A stretch of DNA of 21,735 bases from a virus: IMG/VR virus record IMGVR_UViG_3300009180_000251, positions 1-21,735 of that record; one strand, written 5' to 3'. A program made the translations under genes and the position numbers. The notes beneath the pieces are model-generated. The model did not search any database and had not been told where the DNA came from. It saw nothing but the letters and a program-made list of their open reading frames with translations. Position 1 is the first letter of the stretch. Each line of letters begins with the position of its first letter. Positions 4,084-21,735 of this stretch are shown here, piece by piece.

Positions 4084-5307
4084 ATGTTTAATACTGGTAA
4101 TCCATTTGCTGCAAATCCTCTTCTTCAAGCAGTAGGTCAATATTCTAATACTATAGCACCAAGACCTGCGTTGGCACCCACAGCACCACAGCCTGACAAT
4201 ATGCCAGATCGTGGAATCAATTATCTTGCAGATTATAGCGGTTGCGGTCATTGGCGTTTGATTTGGCCCGAAATGATTCTTAATGCCCATAATAAAATGA
4301 CCATGCATAGCACAACAGTCATGTGCCTTGATCCTCGTTATTATATCAATACCAAGGCAGTTCGTGTTCAACGTCAGGCAACAGAACATCAATTAAAGTT
4401 TGTTCAGTTTTTAAAGCAATTGGGACAACAGAATGGTTTTCGTCTTCTTTACGAGATTGACGATCTTGTGTTTCATGAAGATATTCCGGATTATAACAAA
4501 TTTAAAACTGCATTTATTGATCCTAATATCCGAAAACAAGCTCAAGCTATCATGAATGAATGTGATGAAATCACAGTGACATGTAAATTCATGAAAGATT
4601 ATTATGCGGAAAAGACAGGTCATAAAAAAATCACAGTTATTCCTAACTATCCTCCAAAGTTTTGGATGGGTAATTACTATAATCTTAAAAAAATTAGTGA
4701 AAATTATGATACCTGTGAAAAGAAACCAAGAATTTTATATGCAGGAAGCGGTGCACATTTTGATGTGGAGAATCGTGTAGGACAAAATGATGATTTTGCA
4801 CACGTTTTACAGGCAATTGCAGATACAAAAGACAAATATCAGTGGGTTTTCTTTGGTGCATTTCCTATGATGTTCCGACCTCTCGTTGAAAAAGGCATAT
4901 TTGAATATCATCCTTGGCAAGATCTTTATCATTATCCAGGCAAGATCAATGATTTGAGAATCAATATGATGATTGCACCATTACAAAATAATAATTTCAA
5001 TAAAAGCAAGAGTGATTTGAAGTATATTGAAGCTTGCTGTTATGGTCTTCCTATTGCTTGCCAAAATCTTTGCACATATGAAGATGCCCCATTCAAATTT
5101 GATACCGGAGATGAAATGATTAAGGTAATTAATGAAGTTTTAGGTAAAAAATCAAAATATATGACTCATTGTGAACGGGCCAGATCTGCTTCAGAAAAGC
5201 GTTGGCTTGAAAATGAGGATAATATTAACAAATATGTTGAATTGTACAAATATCCTTATGGGGATGAACGCCGGGTGTTGCTAAACAAAGTGAATGGGTT
5301 AACATAG
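4084..5307 (+). CDS. Glycosyltransferase, GT-B fold (GT4/GT1-like)
   Basis: A 407-residue protein with a proline/alanine-rich start and an acceptor-side domain that includes GCGHWRLIWPE and LLYEIDDLV. A second Rossmann domain begins near residue 218 with KPRILYAGSG and carries the donor-sugar signature SDLKYIEACCYGLPIAC (about 308-325), the E-x6-GxP pattern typical of GT4 enzymes. The expected role is transfer of a nucleotide-activated sugar; the acceptor (modified DNA base, virion protein or host glycan) is unknown. It lies between gp46 and DNA polymerase, an unusual place for a virion-modifying enzyme and compatible with DNA modification. No DNA-base-modifying enzyme is visible nearby. The start is the first ATG after a 21-base gap. 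Confidence 0.75.
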   Translation: MFNTGNPFAANPLLQAVGQYSNTIAPRPALAPTAPQPDNMPDRGINYLADYSGCGHWRLIWPEMILNAHNKMTMHSTTVMCLDPRYYINTKAVRVQRQATEHQLKFVQFLKQLGQQNGFRLLYEIDDLVFHEDIPDYNKFKTAFIDPNIRKQAQAIMNECDEITVTCKFMKDYYAEKTGHKKITVIPNYPPKFWMGNYYNLKKISENYDTCEKKPRILYAGSGAHFDVENRVGQNDDFAHVLQAIADTKDKYQWVFFGAFPMMFRPLVEKGIFEYHPWQDLYHYPGKINDLRINMMIAPLQNNNFNKSKSDLKYIEACCYGLPIACQNLCTYEDAPFKFDTGDEMIKVINEVLGKKSKYMTHCERARSASEKRWLENEDNINKYVELYKYPYGDERRVLLNKVNGLT

Positions 5308-16350: not shown

Positions 16351-16666
16351 TTCTCTTTCTGCAAAACAGCCGACGAAATCAGTATCGGCAGAGAATATCG
16401 AAGGATTGATCAAAAGCACGTTGCACAATTATCTGCAACAAAAGATTAATTTAAAAACAGAAAGATCTGCTGATCTTACACATCTGGACAGCATCATCAG
16501 CGAATATCTTGATTGTTTTATTATTATCGGATATGACATGGCAAATAGTCAGGTGAATTTCATCCATGCAAAAGATCAAAAAGATGCGGATGCATTAAGC
16601 GCAGCAATCAATCGTTTCTTTTATCAGTCACAAAACAATATCAAACCAAAAAACAACGATGATTAA
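16304..16666 (+). CDS. Small unknown protein with basic disordered N-terminus
   Basis: A 120-residue protein whose first ~25 residues are a K/N/S-rich disordered segment. A helical and beta C-terminal domain follows (IEGLIKSTLHNYLQQ, then LDCFIIIGYDMANSQVNFIH and DADALSAAINRFFYQ). The start is GTG 16304, inside the previous gene; no ATG precedes the conserved-looking domain, so the exact start is uncertain. It overlaps the next gene by eight bases. The function is not known. It could be a small regulator or structural factor. Confidence 0.7.
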   Translation: MKSPRKKNNKNSTSSNSLSAKQPTKSVSAENIEGLIKSTLHNYLQQKINLKTERSADLTHLDSIISEYLDCFIIIGYDMANSQVNFIHAKDQKDADALSAAINRFFYQSQNNIKPKNNDD

Positions 16667-17549
16667 TAATGCTCTTATCCTCGGAGGAGGATTTGTAGGA
16701 AAAAATATGGCAGCCAAACTGAAAAGTTTGGGTAATGTAAAAACCGTGGACATGGTTCGCCGGGAATTCTTGGATTATACACAACCAGAAAAACTCCGGG
16801 AATATCTGGAAAAAGGAAAGCCTGATTATTTGATCAATGCAGCAGGTTATACTGGATCACCAAACGTGGAAGGTTGTGAAACCAATTGGCAGGATTGTTA
16901 TTTTTGGAATGTGGTTGTTCCTGTTCGTATTGCTAACATATGCAAAGAAATAGAAATCCCTTTTATTAATGTAGGAAGCGGATGCATTTACGACAGCCAG
17001 GATAAAATTTACAGTGAATATGATATGCCTAATTTTGGAATTTTCAGCAATCGCAGCAGCTTTTACAGCAAAACCAAACATCTTTGTGAAGAAAAATTGG
17101 AAGATTATCCTGTTTACACCTTTCGTATTCGTATTCCTTACAATGACAGTTATGCAAGCAAAAACTATCTTTATAAACTTTTGAAATATGACAACTTGAT
17201 CAGCATGAAAAACAGTATCACCAGTATGAACCTTTTGAGTGAATTTACAGACTTCTTTATCAATTTGAAAGAAAAGCCCCGATATGGTGTTTATAATGTG
17301 GTGAATAATGATAGTATTCGAGGTGAAGACGTTATTCAATTGATGCGAGAAGAAGGGTTAGAAAACAAAAATTGGAAAATTCTAAGCTATGAAGAGATGA
17401 ATTTCAAAGTTAACCGAAGCAATTGCATGCTTTCGCCCATGAAAATTGAAAGTCTGGGTTATACGCCTAAAAATGTTATCGAGGATTTGAAGGAAAATAT
17501 CAAAGGATTTAGTCATGCTGTCAAAGCTCTTCAAAAAGATAAGGTTTAA
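16659..17549 (+). CDS. NAD(P)-dependent sugar reductase/epimerase (extended SDR, RmlD-like)
   Basis: A 296-residue Rossmann-fold protein. The dinucleotide-binding motif is ALILGGGFVG (5-14). The catalytic set is S107 in NVGSGCIYD and YxxxK (Y136, K140) in SFYSKTK. PDYLINAAGYTG (55-66) matches the NAAxYT element of RmlD/dTDP-4-dehydrorhamnose reductase and related enzymes. The C-terminal part (YGVYNVVNNDSIRGEDVI) is typical of nucleotide-sugar modifiers. It probably makes or alters an activated deoxysugar for one of the two glycosyltransferases encoded in the same window. All catalytic residues are intact. Phage SDR enzymes of this type often support capsule-like or virion glycosylation; the substrate is unknown. 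Confidence 0.85.
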   Translation: MINNALILGGGFVGKNMAAKLKSLGNVKTVDMVRREFLDYTQPEKLREYLEKGKPDYLINAAGYTGSPNVEGCETNWQDCYFWNVVVPVRIANICKEIEIPFINVGSGCIYDSQDKIYSEYDMPNFGIFSNRSSFYSKTKHLCEEKLEDYPVYTFRIRIPYNDSYASKNYLYKLLKYDNLISMKNSITSMNLLSEFTDFFINLKEKPRYGVYNVVNNDSIRGEDVIQLMREEGLENKNWKILSYEEMNFKVNRSNCMLSPMKIESLGYTPKNVIEDLKENIKGFSHAVKALQKDKV

Positions 17550-17804: not shown

Positions 17805-17990
17805 ATGATCAAAAACGTACCATTTGTGCAGCCCAAACCTCAAGTAAGTCCTATTTCAGGACAATTGACAAGACCTATTATTGTGGAACGTCAAGTAGGC
17901 AAAAATGTTATGAAAGAAGCACAATGGATTGATCCTGCTTCTGGAACACTCTTTCTGCGCGGTATTGTGAGTGTAGAAGAGAAAAAATAA
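17805..17990 (+). CDS. Small unknown protein heading the virion module
   Basis: A 61-residue protein with a polar, proline-rich first half (VQPKPQVSPISGQLTRP) and a second half with VERQVGKNVMKEAQWIDPASGTLF, which looks like a short beta-hairpin domain. No family is recognised. It follows a perfect late-promoter octamer and is separated by nine bases from the first propeller gene, so it is probably expressed late with it. It may be a minor virion protein or a connector to the fibre. Confidence 0.65.
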   Translation: MIKNVPFVQPKPQVSPISGQLTRPIIVERQVGKNVMKEAQWIDPASGTLFLRGIVSVEEKK

Positions 17991-17999
17991 CCTTTTACC

Positions 18000-19358
18000 G
18001 TGAGTCGTGCAAGCATACTTGGAACATTGGGCTTATCTGGATTTAACATCCAGGGAACAGTTCTTGTAAGCCGAGGAAGCACAGCCCAGCCAACATTCAG
18101 CGCGGCTCCAGTTACATCAGGTGTTTCTAATTTAAATTTTGACAGAAGCGGTCCTTTAACAAGAATAGCATCAAATGCCAGCACAGGCGTAGTTACACTT
18201 TCAGCAGTACCAAGTCTTACAGATCTTCAGGCAGCTGATTGGACTGATGGAAGTAACATATCAAACTGGGGTACATTGCAATCCTTTCTGAGTGCAGTTG
18301 CTTATAGTAATCGAAACATTTCAGCCAGTGCTGTGACCATGCGCCTTTTTGGAACCACAAGGGGATATAGCGTTTCAATGCAAGTGCATCCCAATGGAAA
18401 AATATACATGTTTCCCGCAGATATCACACAAACCACACATGGTTATGTGATTGATCCTGAAGGTGAACGTATCATAACAACATTTTTTTACACGACAGGT
18501 GTAAGCAGAGCAATGCTGGCACCCAATGGAAAATTCTACATGAATACTGGGGCAACTCTTCTTGTTGTTCTGGATCCCAGCACCGATACGGTTAATCAAA
18601 CTATAAACACTTCACCAGTTACTTTCGGTTATCCGACCTTGGCCAGAAATGGTAAATTTTATGAAGCTGGAACTTCAATTATTGGAATTTTTGATCCTGC
18701 AAATAATACAACCACAACTATTGCAGCACCAGCTTTTAATACACTCCCTAACGTTAATGGAAGCCAACTTGCTCCCAACGGAAAAATATACTATGCTCCT
18801 TATTTTGGTACAGTTTTTTCAGTAATTGATCCAGAAGCAGGAACAGGTGCAACTTTTGGCTTTCGCGGGGGATTTTCATATGCTGGACTGCCTGCTTTTA
18901 GCATGAATTTCGAAGGAATGGTACTTGCTCCTAACGGGAAACTATATTGTATTCCTCATAATGTTCCCAGTACTAGTGGAGCTGTTACAGCAGGACCAAT
19001 TGGAATTATAAATCCAGATGATAACACCACCACAACAATAGCAAGTTGGATAGGAAGTGGAACAAGCGGAGTAAACAGTCAAACAGCATTTCTTGCTCCG
19101 AATGGAAAAATATATACAGCGCCCAATCAAGACACTTTTGTGGTTTGTATAGATCCTGAAACAAATACCACTACAAAATTAATTGAAAATACATTTGGAT
19201 TTTCTTCTTTACAATCTCAAGGAGGTGTGATGCATCCGAATGGAAAAGCATTTTTTGTTCCTTATTATACTACAGCAATAGGGGTTATGGATTTCAAATT
19301 AAACAATAATTGGAATATAAATGTTTGTACCAATCCAATGTTTAACAAACAAATTTAA
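18000..19358 (+). CDS. Seven-bladed beta-propeller tail-fibre-like protein, copy 1
   Basis: A 452-residue protein. The N-terminal ~125 residues share with the two later paralogues the elements STGVVTLSA and ISNWGTLQSFLSAVAYSNR, probably the attachment or oligomerisation part. From about residue 128 seven repeats of 42-56 residues follow, each with a variant of LAPNGKIY and then an (I/V)(D/N)P turn followed by polar residues (T-T-T). They begin near 18383, 18514, 18641, 18769, 18925, 19093 and 19230. Seven such units suit a YncE/kelch-like seven-bladed propeller. The C-terminus is NVCTNPMFNKQI. The GTG start is supported because the product MSRASILGTLGLSGF aligns with MSNA..L starts of the other copies. 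Function as a receptor-binding or virion-decorating protein is inferred from context. Confidence 0.8.
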   Translation: MSRASILGTLGLSGFNIQGTVLVSRGSTAQPTFSAAPVTSGVSNLNFDRSGPLTRIASNASTGVVTLSAVPSLTDLQAADWTDGSNISNWGTLQSFLSAVAYSNRNISASAVTMRLFGTTRGYSVSMQVHPNGKIYMFPADITQTTHGYVIDPEGERIITTFFYTTGVSRAMLAPNGKFYMNTGATLLVVLDPSTDTVNQTINTSPVTFGYPTLARNGKFYEAGTSIIGIFDPANNTTTTIAAPAFNTLPNVNGSQLAPNGKIYYAPYFGTVFSVIDPEAGTGATFGFRGGFSYAGLPAFSMNFEGMVLAPNGKLYCIPHNVPSTSGAVTAGPIGIINPDDNTTTTIASWIGSGTSGVNSQTAFLAPNGKIYTAPNQDTFVVCIDPETNTTTKLIENTFGFSSLQSQGGVMHPNGKAFFVPYYTTAIGVMDFKLNNNWNINVCTNPMFNKQI

Positions 19359-19364
19359 TAAATA
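19357..19364 (+). promoter_or_regulatory. Octamer AATAAATA upstream of the chaperone-like gene
   Basis: TAATAAATA ends six bases before ATG 19371, one more than at the other sites. It overlaps the stop region of copy 1. Weak evidence for a late-type promoter. Confidence 0.25.
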
Positions 19365-19370
19365 TATTAT

Positions 19371-19745
19371 ATGACAATTTACGTTGATTGCGGAACATAT
19401 TACGAAACAGGCGATGCAGTGATTTGCCGCATGCGCAAAGATCAACCTTATTATCCTTTTAGTGGAGGTAGCATTACATGGGAACAATATGTAAACCAAC
19501 AAGTTGCACAAGGATTGGCTCAAGTTGTTCAACTAATCAATGATCCCACTCGTCTGGCCGCTTACTGGAATGATGTGTTAAGCAAACGGAACGGTCTTCT
19601 TGTGGAAAGTGATTGGACACAGCTTCGGGACGTTTCCCTTGGTGATAATCCTGAATGGGTAAGTTATCGTCAGCAATTGCGTGATATTCCTCAGACATAT
19701 GCCAGTGATCCTCGTCTTATCGTTTGGCCTGTTAAACCTAGCTAA
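19371..19745 (+). CDS. Tail-fibre assembly/tail chaperone-like protein
   Basis: A 124-residue protein. The C-terminal half RNGLLVESDWTQLRDVS, WVSYRQQLRDIPQTY and VIWPVKP-type ending (LIVWPVKPS) is the familiar phage domain RN..L..TDW...D....W..YRQ.LRD.P......VWP..P (Pfam Phage_tail_APC_4, from memory), found in tail assembly chaperones and tail-fibre assembly proteins. The N-terminal half (MTIYVDCGTYYETGDAVICR) is unfamiliar. It lies between two propeller paralogues, which fits a role in folding or assembling those fibres. The ATG is the first in the frame after a 12-base gap. Confidence 0.75.
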   Translation: MTIYVDCGTYYETGDAVICRMRKDQPYYPFSGGSITWEQYVNQQVAQGLAQVVQLINDPTRLAAYWNDVLSKRNGLLVESDWTQLRDVSLGDNPEWVSYRQQLRDIPQTYASDPRLIVWPVKPS

Positions 19746-19751
19746 ATCATA

Positions 19752-19759
19752 TATAAATT
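19752..19759 (+). promoter_or_regulatory. Late-promoter-like TATAAATT upstream of propeller copy 2
   Basis: It matches TATAAATA at seven of eight positions in the 55-base gap before ATG 19801. A T4-like start would lie near 19765, giving a leader of about 36 bases that contains the hairpin at 19771-19798. Inferred. Confidence 0.35.
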
Positions 19760-19770
19760 TTGATGTTTTT

Positions 19771-19798
19771 CGTTAAATAATATTATATTATTTTAACG
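19771..19798 (+). promoter_or_regulatory. AT-rich hairpin immediately before the start of propeller copy 2
   Basis: Arms CGTTAAATAAT and ATTATTTTAACG pair over 11 base pairs with one bulged T (19791) and a small loop (19782-19786). The structure ends two bases before ATG 19801, so it would cover the ribosome-binding region. It is not a canonical terminator: it has few GC pairs and is followed by the start codon rather than a U-run. Confidence 0.5.
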
Positions 19799-19800
19799 AT

Positions 19801-21126
19801 ATGAGCAACGCATATAATCTAAGTCTTTTAGCATCAAGAAACAATCTGGGAAATGCTGGGGATGCATTCATCAGTCAAGGAAATGATATTGCTCCATCTT
19901 TGGGTCCGTTAAGTGCCGGTGTTTTGAGTTTAAGTGGAATAAACCAGCTTACTAGTCAAATAGGTGTAAACAAATCAACAGGGGTTGTTACCATATCTGC
20001 AGAACCTCATTTGTGTGAATTGGATGTGCCAGGATGGGATAAAGGGCAGCACATAACACAATGGAGCACATTGCAAAAATATCTGAGTGCAACAGCATTT
20101 ACAAACAGAAAAATTCCAGTCAGTGCAGTTTATTATGAAAATTTTGGGAGTGCACCTGGATCAAATGGACTTTTAGGTGCTTGTTTAGCACCAAATGGTG
20201 TTGTTTATTTCATAGCACACGATAGTACAATAGGATATAAAATTAACCCAGCAAGTAATAGTGTCGGAACCTATAGTTTAGGTCCAGCTGGATTTACAGC
20301 AGGTGCTGGTAAAAATTGTGGTGGGGTATTGGCACCTAACGGAAGAATATATTTCATACCTGGTGCAGCCACACCTTCTCCAGGTTATCTAAATCCAGAA
20401 AATGATGTTTGCACAACATTTGGAAATCTGAGTCTTCCAGCAGGAACAAGAAAATGGTATGGAGGCGCTTTGGCTCCGAATGGTTTGATTTATTGCGCAC
20501 CCCATAATTCTTCACAATTGCTTATTATTAATCCTAACAACAACACATTGACCACACTTAACAATTATCCGGGAGCTGGAACTTGGCCCGGTTCAACATC
20601 TTTTAGCGGAGCAGTTTTGGCTCCCAATGGTAGAATTTATATGATGGGAATAGGTTCACCAATTGTTAATTTGAATCCAAATAATAATACTGTTACCACA
20701 TATGCTTCAAACGGATCATATGCAGGGGGTGTGGTGGCTCCCAACGGAAAAATATATTTCATGCCGTATACAGCAACAAGTTTTCTCGTGCTGGATCCTT
20801 CAGATGATTCTCGAACTCATTTTGGAACTTGTACAGGAAGCCTTCAATATGAAGGAGGTGTTTTGGCTCCCAACGGATGTATTTATGCAATAAGTTTAAA
20901 TGCAACAATAGGTCGAATAATTGATCCTTCAAATAATACAGTCACAACAATCACAGGCGGCGGATTTATAGGAGGATCTTTAGGTTATACTGGAGCAGTG
21001 ATTGCTCCGAATAATAAAATATATTTCACACCTTACAATGCAACTAGTTTTTTGTGTTTGAATGTACCTGCAAATAATAATTTCAACCTAAACGTTTGCA
21101 CCAACCCTTTCTTTAACAAATATTAA
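19801..21126 (+). CDS. Seven-bladed beta-propeller tail-fibre-like protein, copy 2
   Basis: A 441-residue paralogue of the protein at 18000. The N-terminal domain (1-120) contains VNKSTGVVTISAEP and HITQWSTLQKYLSATAFTNR. The propeller (about 125-441) has seven blades marked by LAPNGVVYFI, LAPNGRIYFI, LAPNGLIYCA, LAPNGRIYMM, VAPNGKIYFM, LAPNGCIYAI and IAPNNKIYFT, each followed by an NP or DP turn and a T-rich strand. The C-terminus NVCTNPFFNKY matches copy 1. Blade length is about 35-50 residues. The gene has its own upstream gap with a promoter-like site and a hairpin, so it may be regulated separately from copy 1. A receptor-binding role is inferred. Confidence 0.8.
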   Translation: MSNAYNLSLLASRNNLGNAGDAFISQGNDIAPSLGPLSAGVLSLSGINQLTSQIGVNKSTGVVTISAEPHLCELDVPGWDKGQHITQWSTLQKYLSATAFTNRKIPVSAVYYENFGSAPGSNGLLGACLAPNGVVYFIAHDSTIGYKINPASNSVGTYSLGPAGFTAGAGKNCGGVLAPNGRIYFIPGAATPSPGYLNPENDVCTTFGNLSLPAGTRKWYGGALAPNGLIYCAPHNSSQLLIINPNNNTLTTLNNYPGAGTWPGSTSFSGAVLAPNGRIYMMGIGSPIVNLNPNNNTVTTYASNGSYAGGVVAPNGKIYFMPYTATSFLVLDPSDDSRTHFGTCTGSLQYEGGVLAPNGCIYAISLNATIGRIIDPSNNTVTTITGGGFIGGSLGYTGAVIAPNNKIYFTPYNATSFLCLNVPANNNFNLNVCTNPFFNKY

Positions 21127-21129
21127 ATA
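21122..21129 (+). promoter_or_regulatory. Octamer ATTAAATA 5 bases before ATG of propeller copy 3
   Basis: TATTAAATA overlaps the stop of copy 2 and is followed by AACCT-ATG, the same five-base spacing seen at the starts at 4084, 8654 (minus), 8705 and 17805. Promoter function is inferred. Confidence 0.4.
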
Positions 21130-21134
21130 AACCT

Positions 21135-21735
21135 ATGAGTAATGCAACAAATCTAGCACTTCTGGGATTGAGCGGTTTCGGCAATGCCGGAAATGTTTTG
21201 ACCAGCACAGGCGCAACCACTGCTCCAACATTCAGTGCAAGCGGTGTGGGTGTACGAGAAATCCGTGTGGTAAATCAGGTATTGAGTCGGTTGGGCGTTA
21301 ATAGAAGCACAGGAAATGTTAGTGTCAGTGCTCTTCCTGATATTAGCGAAATTGATGTTCCAAGCTGGGTGAACGGTGGTCACATCAGTGATTGGAGCAC
21401 GTTGCAATATTATCTGAGTGCAGTTGCTGCTACGAATACAAGTCCGGCTAGTTCAGCATATGTTGAAGTTTTTGGAACTGTTTCCGGTAGTGTTCCTTTA
21501 GGACCGGCAAATGAATCTGGAGTATTGGCTCCGAATGGAAAAATTTATCTTGCTCCTAGAAATGGAAGTCTACTCAGTGTAATAGATCCAAGTACAAACA
21601 CTGTGAGTGTAATTAACAGTACATTTCCAGGGGGTGCTGCATTTTATACAGGAGGTGTTCTGGCTCCGAATGGAAAAATTTACCTTAATCAGGCAGGAAT
21701 ATCAGTGGGAAGAGTGATTGATCCTGCCACAAATA
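21135..21735 (+). CDS. Beta-propeller tail-fibre-like protein, copy 3 (3' end outside window)
   Basis: The frame from ATG 21135 is open to the window end (200 codons). It starts MSNATNLALLGLSGFGNAGN, closest to copy 1 (LGLSGF) and copy 2 (MSNA), and contains VNRSTGNVSVSALPDISEID and HISDWSTLQYYLSAVAATN. Two blade motifs LAPNGKIY begin near 21521 and 21658 with VIDPSTNTV between them. It is therefore a third tandem paralogue. If full length it would end about 720-750 bases past the window edge. It is read as a virion adhesin by context. Confidence 0.8.
   Translation, partial: MSNATNLALLGLSGFGNAGNVLTSTGATTAPTFSASGVGVREIRVVNQVLSRLGVNRSTGNVSVSALPDISEIDVPSWVNGGHISDWSTLQYYLSAVAATNTSPASSAYVEVFGTVSGSVPLGPANESGVLAPNGKIYLAPRNGSLLSVIDPSTNTVSVINSTFPGGAAFYTGGVLAPNGKIYLNQAGISVGRVIDPATN

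Follow-up and report, generated by a model that had tools for sequence, protein, structure and literature searches.

Three paralogous genes at the right end of a viral record appear to form a rack of tail-fibre adhesins, in which slot-specific docking domains would carry exchangeable seven-bladed beta-propellers that present a hypervariable face (probability about 0.73). Sequence comparison of related viruses supports the swapping of whole propellers, not only from phage to phage but also from one slot to another, and this swapping looks like a means of repeatedly altering what the virus grips. The stretch analysed here, called the window, is the entire IMG/VR record IMGVR_UViG_3300009180_000251 with its 21,735 bases, and its right end falls inside the third gene.

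Three paralogous genes in a T4-superfamily phage

The window encodes homologues of several T4-superfamily core genes, namely gp43 (E 3e-196), UvsX (E 2e-57), the gp41 helicase (E 9e-82), gp32 (E 2e-41) and a gp55-like late sigma factor (E 8e-28), and these bear out the T4-like setting that an earlier note on this DNA had assumed. The gp43 protein shows only about 32% identity to the nearest isolates among the matches listed. As judged from its genes, the source phage is a T4-superfamily myovirus that is distant from phage T4 and known from metagenomes only. Amid the replication genes, ORFs at 16659-17549 and 4084-5307 resemble, when read by eye, a sugar-nucleotide reductase/epimerase and a glycosyltransferase.

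The earlier note described three tandem paralogues with a common N-terminal WSTLQ..LSA block. The three ORFs are indeed found where it had placed them (Table 1), and all of them share the N-terminal domain (N-domain) with the motif W(S/G)TLQ..LSA. Overall identity to copy 2 amounts to 36-37% for copy 1 and to about 50% for copy 3. The word tandem needs a correction, as copies 1 and 2 are not strictly contiguous: a tail-fibre-chaperone-like gene intervenes. This gene, which is kept at the equivalent position in related loci, matches Pfam Phage_tail_APC (E 2.6e-16) and the PHROG tail fiber assembly (E 9.5e-16). The 61-aa ORF that precedes the row has a nearly identical counterpart at the equivalent place in L018, L019 and L020, and the slot-3 N-domain of the window is 92-94% identical to the nearest slot-3 N-domains on other contigs.

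Table 1. Position and properties of the features at the right end of the window. Fold and function terms are predictions.
Feature	Position	Strand	Remarks
Conserved 61-aa ORF	17805..17990	+	directly 5' of slot 1
Slot-1 adhesin-like protein (copy 1)	18000..19358	+	ORF, 452 aa, GTG start; N-domain about aa 1-111, seven-bladed propeller aa 112-432, short C-terminal tail
Slot-1 hinge block WGTLQSFLSA	18267..18296	+	inside predicted helix aa 87-103, N-terminal of propeller
AGTGC, slot 1	18327..18331	+	position equivalent to 5' joint of two whole-propeller exchanges (L009 slot 1, L021 slot 1)
Copy-1 propeller	18333..19295	+	7 blades; closing strand aa 112-117, then remaining strands (DSSP of model)
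Tail-fibre chaperone-like protein	19371..19745	+	124 aa; between slots 1 and 2
Slot-2 adhesin-like protein (copy 2)	19801..21126	+	ORF, 441 aa; N-domain, seven-bladed propeller aa 111-421, tail
Slot-2 hinge block WSTLQKYLSA	20062..20091	+	
AGTGC, slot 2	20122..20126	+	N-domain/propeller border
Copy-2 propeller	20131..21063	+	28 strands = 7 x 4; last blade completed by aa 111-117
Slot-3 adhesin-like protein (copy 3)	21135 to record end	+	ORF open at contig end, 200 aa, two blades present
Slot-3 hinge block WSTLQYYLSA	21393..21422	+	

Predicted fold and number of blades

Copies 1 and 2 are predicted to be closed seven-bladed beta-propellers. In AlphaFold2 models, which were made with family alignments, copy 2 reached a pTM of 0.74 with pLDDT values mostly between 80 and 94 in the propeller, and copy 1 a pTM of 0.76 with the same layout. 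The model of copy 2 comprises 28 strands between aa 111 and 421, which make up seven four-stranded blades; the ring is closed by the strand aa 111-117, located right after the N-domain, which joins the last blade, itself only three-stranded. This model aligns end to end with closed propellers. According to Foldseek and VIA-align the best PDB match is virginiamycin B lyase for both proteins: 2z2o for copy 2 (Z 30.4, rmsd 2.7, 293 residues) and 2z2n for copy 1 (Z 26.7, rmsd 2.6, 283 residues). Because the sequence identity to the virginiamycin B lyase structures is only 11-15%, these matches show the fold and not the function. The closed seven-bladed ring, which the earlier note had proposed from the repeats, is thus backed by two models and by structural matches to seven-bladed propellers. 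The N-domain was modelled poorly, with pLDDT values under 50 at residues 1-86 in copy 2 and 1-75 in copy 1. The earlier note called the tips monomeric-looking, but by analogy with the propeller-bearing receptor-binding protein (RBP) of phage phi11 (PMC4901313) the N-domain may trimerise.

At the sequence level, a PDB search with copy 2 gave chance matches only. Pfam DUF5074 is matched by copy 1 with E 3.5e-9 and 36.6 bits, above the gathering cut-off of 27.2, and by copy 2 with 18.5 bits, below this cut-off; several relatives pass the cut-off of DUF6923. The best viral structural match in BFVD is A0A1V0SG21 from Hokovirus HKV1, a protein of a giant virus that combines collagen repeats with a propeller (28% identity), which suggests that this type of propeller is spread more widely.

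When the proteins are split at the NGKIY-type motif, copy 1 contains 7 units, copy 2 also 7 and the cut copy 3 contains 2, exactly as the earlier note had counted, and a blade HMM built from the family agrees with the motif split for all three. Relatives of the window propellers were collected from IMG/VR and their blades counted with the same HMM, the sample being about 97 complete ORFs with at least five blades. Seven blades were found in 80 of the 97 ORFs, six in ten (several of these counts may miss a weak last blade), five in two, eight in three (each of the three counts depends on an extra match of 3-6 bits N-terminal of the first blade) and fourteen in two. The seven units of the window proteins are therefore not a matter of chance, since relatives on other contigs likewise have seven. 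In 92 of the 97 ORFs the propeller ends at most 45 aa from the C-terminus, while the preceding N-terminal regions range from 26 to 2942 residues. One 699-aa ORF each in L082 (10718-12814) and L083 (2708-4804) has fourteen blade matches and apparently contains two full propellers per protein. Propeller relatives also occur in bacterial assemblies (L152-L193, found in a scan with a 3-sequence alignment), many of them from Spirochaetes/Leptospirales, with several per genome.

Two unlike faces of the propeller

In beta-propellers the BC and DA loops share one face, which is commonly the ligand-binding one. An alignment of 46 relatives reveals a clear asymmetry: the BC and DA loops have an entropy of 2.60 bits versus 1.13 bits for the AB and CD turns (permutation p 5e-5), and the lengths of the AB and CD turns are nearly constant, whereas DA loops vary from 4 to 18 residues. 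Between close pairs pN/pS, determined by simple counts rather than by a codon model, is 0.70 for BC/DA loops, 0.27 for strands and 0.13 for AB/CD turns. The earlier note had expected divergent loops, and the result is sharper than this, as only the BC/DA loops of one face vary and the AB/CD turns are frozen. In the most recent comparisons pN/pS of the BC/DA loops lies near 1 (0.86 in a slot-1 cluster, 1.08-1.19 in three others), a value not clearly above 1, so that relaxed constraint may also account for it. Tight structural turns on one face could explain part of the loop asymmetry.

All invariant or near-invariant propeller columns among the 46 relatives are located in or beside the PNG (AB) turn, strand B or the DP (CD) turn, and none in the BC or DA loops. 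This distribution bears on a possible enzymatic function: with virginiamycin B lyase and galactose oxidase as the nearest structural matches, the propellers could be supposed to act as a lyase, an oxidase or a glycan-cleaving enzyme. Because the conserved columns sit in or beside the AB/CD turns and strand B, the variable face shows no active site common to the relatives, and the identity to the matched enzymes is, as stated, only 11-15%. An enzymatic role is therefore very improbable in our view.

Slots and exchange of whole propellers

About a dozen close contigs have the same gene order as the window, and a second group of contigs carries a similar row with other N-domains; this sample of phages is small, as additional N-domain scans returned essentially the same dozen contigs. 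In both groups the N-domains cluster by their position in the row, giving six clusters. At a threshold of 62% identity the 45 propellers are grouped in 21 clusters, and four of these include propellers from two N-domain types; an apparent fifth cross-type cluster was discounted, because one of its N-domains is truncated by the contig end and forms a cluster of its own. For 43 pairs the identity of the N-domains is 85% or higher and that of the propellers below 52%. By these clusters the N-domain is slot-specific and the propeller is not.

Only two moves between slots are clean at the DNA level. In slot 1 of L009 the N-domain is 99% identical to that of window slot 1 and the propeller is 89% identical to the propeller of window slot 2, with flanks on both sides that show 91-100% DNA identity to slot-1 flanks. 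The slot-1 propeller of L021 and the slot-3 propeller of L020 share 96% identity. In both L009 and L021 the upstream switch lies at the AGT GC codons of an ASA motif, directly before the closing strand, and in L009 the downstream switch is at about the stop codon.

The earlier note had suggested that the copies exchange blades by recombination. Recombination is supported for whole propellers, between phages as well as between slots, but not for single blades: a comparison of blades among 41 propellers gave 496 close matches in register versus 5 off-register, and single-blade shuffling as the main process was rejected. All five off-register matches are between two neighbouring genes of L022. 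A more complex row is found in L029 (1924-12296), where six propeller genes have two kinds of N-domain, three long and three short, and one propeller of the long type shares 69-72% identity with a slot propeller of the short type in L039.

Since every locus is a metagenomic contig and short conserved stretches are common to the slots, the moves between slots might be assembly chimeras, with the slots merely diverging; this would concern the exchange only, and neither the fold nor the adhesin role. We assign very little probability to this explanation. Slots 1 and 2 of the window share no 14-mer at the joint, a length below the usual assembly words, and their only shared 14-mers are inside the propeller, which makes a chimera unlikely. 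In addition, two contigs from different samples switch at identical codons, each moved propeller shows differences of 4-11% to its counterpart, and replacement within a slot is seen in the 43 pairs mentioned above.

At the hinge block WSTLQ..LSA the codon identity between slots is 1.82 times the expectation from codon usage versus 0.94-1.47 elsewhere (permutation p 0.008, without correction for codon usage), a modest signal from a block of only ten codons. This conservation fits a segment that is held alike through recombination. The slot-1 N-domain of L020 (8185-9555) is a mosaic with window-like flanks and an L021-like part at about aa 70-105; therefore the hinge region recombines too.

A putative rack of adhesins

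The three copies are most likely tail-fibre adhesins with interchangeable tips. The slot-specific N-terminal domain would dock each protein at its own tail-fibre position, and the closed C-terminal propeller would show its hypervariable BC/DA face to the host surface, where it probably binds a glycan or a surface protein. Homologous recombination at short conserved joints, upstream in the WSTLQ..LSA / ASA region and downstream at the gene end, would exchange the propeller as a single cassette, from phage to phage or from slot to slot; binding tips would be reassorted in this way and docking sites stay constant. Assembly may be helped by the product of the chaperone-like gene that separates slots 1 and 2. 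The predicted fold, the number of blades, the slot specificity, the exchange of cassettes with its 5' joint and the variability of one face are results of the analysis, whereas we infer the virion location, receptor binding, the influence on host range, the mechanism of homologous recombination and the chaperone role. More tentatively, and at somewhat less than even odds, the three fibre positions would stay constant while a common pool of propeller tips circulates among slots and phages via the hinge that is conserved in the DNA. If this is true, a single cassette move would change the set of binding tips of a phage, comparable to cassette-based antigenic variation, which reassorts surface modules.

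Indirect support for an adhesin role comes from the fibre-chaperone-like neighbour and from relatives in which this propeller forms the C-terminal part of proteins with BppU_N, tail-fibre, minor-tail or virion-structural domains. In L050 (6415-8670) the propeller is C-terminal to BppU_N, the domain of the lactococcal-type phage baseplate upper protein, and has a weak Tachylectin match. In L025 (6518-8401) and L031 (3762-5639) it is fused C-terminally to a Phage_HCP / head closure (head-completion) domain, and these fusions would put propellers at the head-tail connector. Because two relatives carry the propeller on a head-completion protein, it may have a more general surface role. Downstream of the locus, relatives have cell-wall-hydrolase genes, a Collar/Mtd_N fibre protein and a baseplate hub protein; since another fibre gene (Collar/Mtd_N) is present, the propeller proteins may be accessory and not the sole or primary adhesins.

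These observations lead to a different view of the propellers, as general decorations of the virion surface that bind glycans or mucus weakly and aid encounter, with a face that diversifies under relaxed constraint. The head-completion fusions and the additional fibre-like gene downstream speak for it, as does the pN/pS of the variable face, near 1 and not clearly above. We nevertheless regard it as unlikely: the fibre-chaperone neighbour and the slot-specific N-domains point to fibres, whole-cassette exchange is typically seen in host-range determinants, and the bottom face and the strands are strongly constrained.

Comparison with known systems

Tip swapping in phages is known mostly for trimeric fibre ends and gp38-type adhesins. 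In T-even phages, recombination at conserved motifs swaps the distal-fibre adhesins gp37/gp38 (Tetart 1998; Trojet 2011; both as cited in PMC3797505). As described there, such motifs lie on both sides of a hypervariable module, which T4-superfamily phages exchange as a whole, and the window row resembles this arrangement; we infer that the propeller is the counterpart of the module swapped in gp37/gp38 in host recognition. What sets the row apart from gp37/gp38, as far as that source describes them, is that a seven-bladed propeller with an N-domain of its own serves as the module, that there are three slots in parallel and that the module also moves between them. The gp37/gp38 family is absent among the Pfam and PHROGs matches of the copies, and the N-domain has no convincing match in these two databases.

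The earlier note held that a set of monomeric-looking propeller tips would be unusual compared with most T4-like fibres, which overstates the case: according to PMC4901313, propellers of the adsorption apparatus occur in phiKZ (gp131C), phi11 (Gp45) and PRD1 (P2). Like the window proteins, phiKZ gp131 (PDB 4GBF) has a C-terminal seven-bladed propeller, which is located at the periphery of the myovirus baseplate and is a proposed receptor binder; in contrast to the window row, its description in PMC4901313 mentions neither tandem slots nor cassette exchange. The absence of gp131C among the structure matches listed is not evidence against a relation. In the phi11 RBP Gp45 the propeller is likewise closed by an N-terminal strand that joins the last blade, but this protein, from a Staphylococcus siphovirus, is described as trimeric, with a five-bladed propeller in mid-protein and a tower after it (PMC4901313).

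By sequence, the closest known families are Pfam DUF5074 and DUF6923 and propeller repeats of the YVTN type, which Pfam describes as of unknown function and does not define as phage adhesins. The only phage records with a sequence match in the searched collection are the Cylindrospermopsis phages CrV-01T (gp012) and Cr-LKS4 (g13), with 33-36% identity over 55-66% of the query. As in the window, their propeller is near the C-terminal end and the gene is close to structural genes, but each has a single protein of more than 1100 aa. The same propeller module is found in many environmental phage contigs, and in the two matching isolated phages it is annotated only as 'hypothetical protein'.

In the literature searched, the coverage of which is incomplete, we found no report of parallel propeller slots with exchange between slots and nothing relevant on paralogous receptor-binding proteins with domain swapping. 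What is exchanged here seems to be an entire propeller, closed in itself, of which one face is frozen and the other variable, and which is placed in three parallel slots. This would be a compact natural example of modular host recognition in which the unit of exchange becomes directly testable, and it predicts which face and which loops (BC/DA) should contact the receptor. Adhesin swapping and propellers are each already known in phages; what appears to be new is the multi-slot rack with exchange of propellers between its slots.
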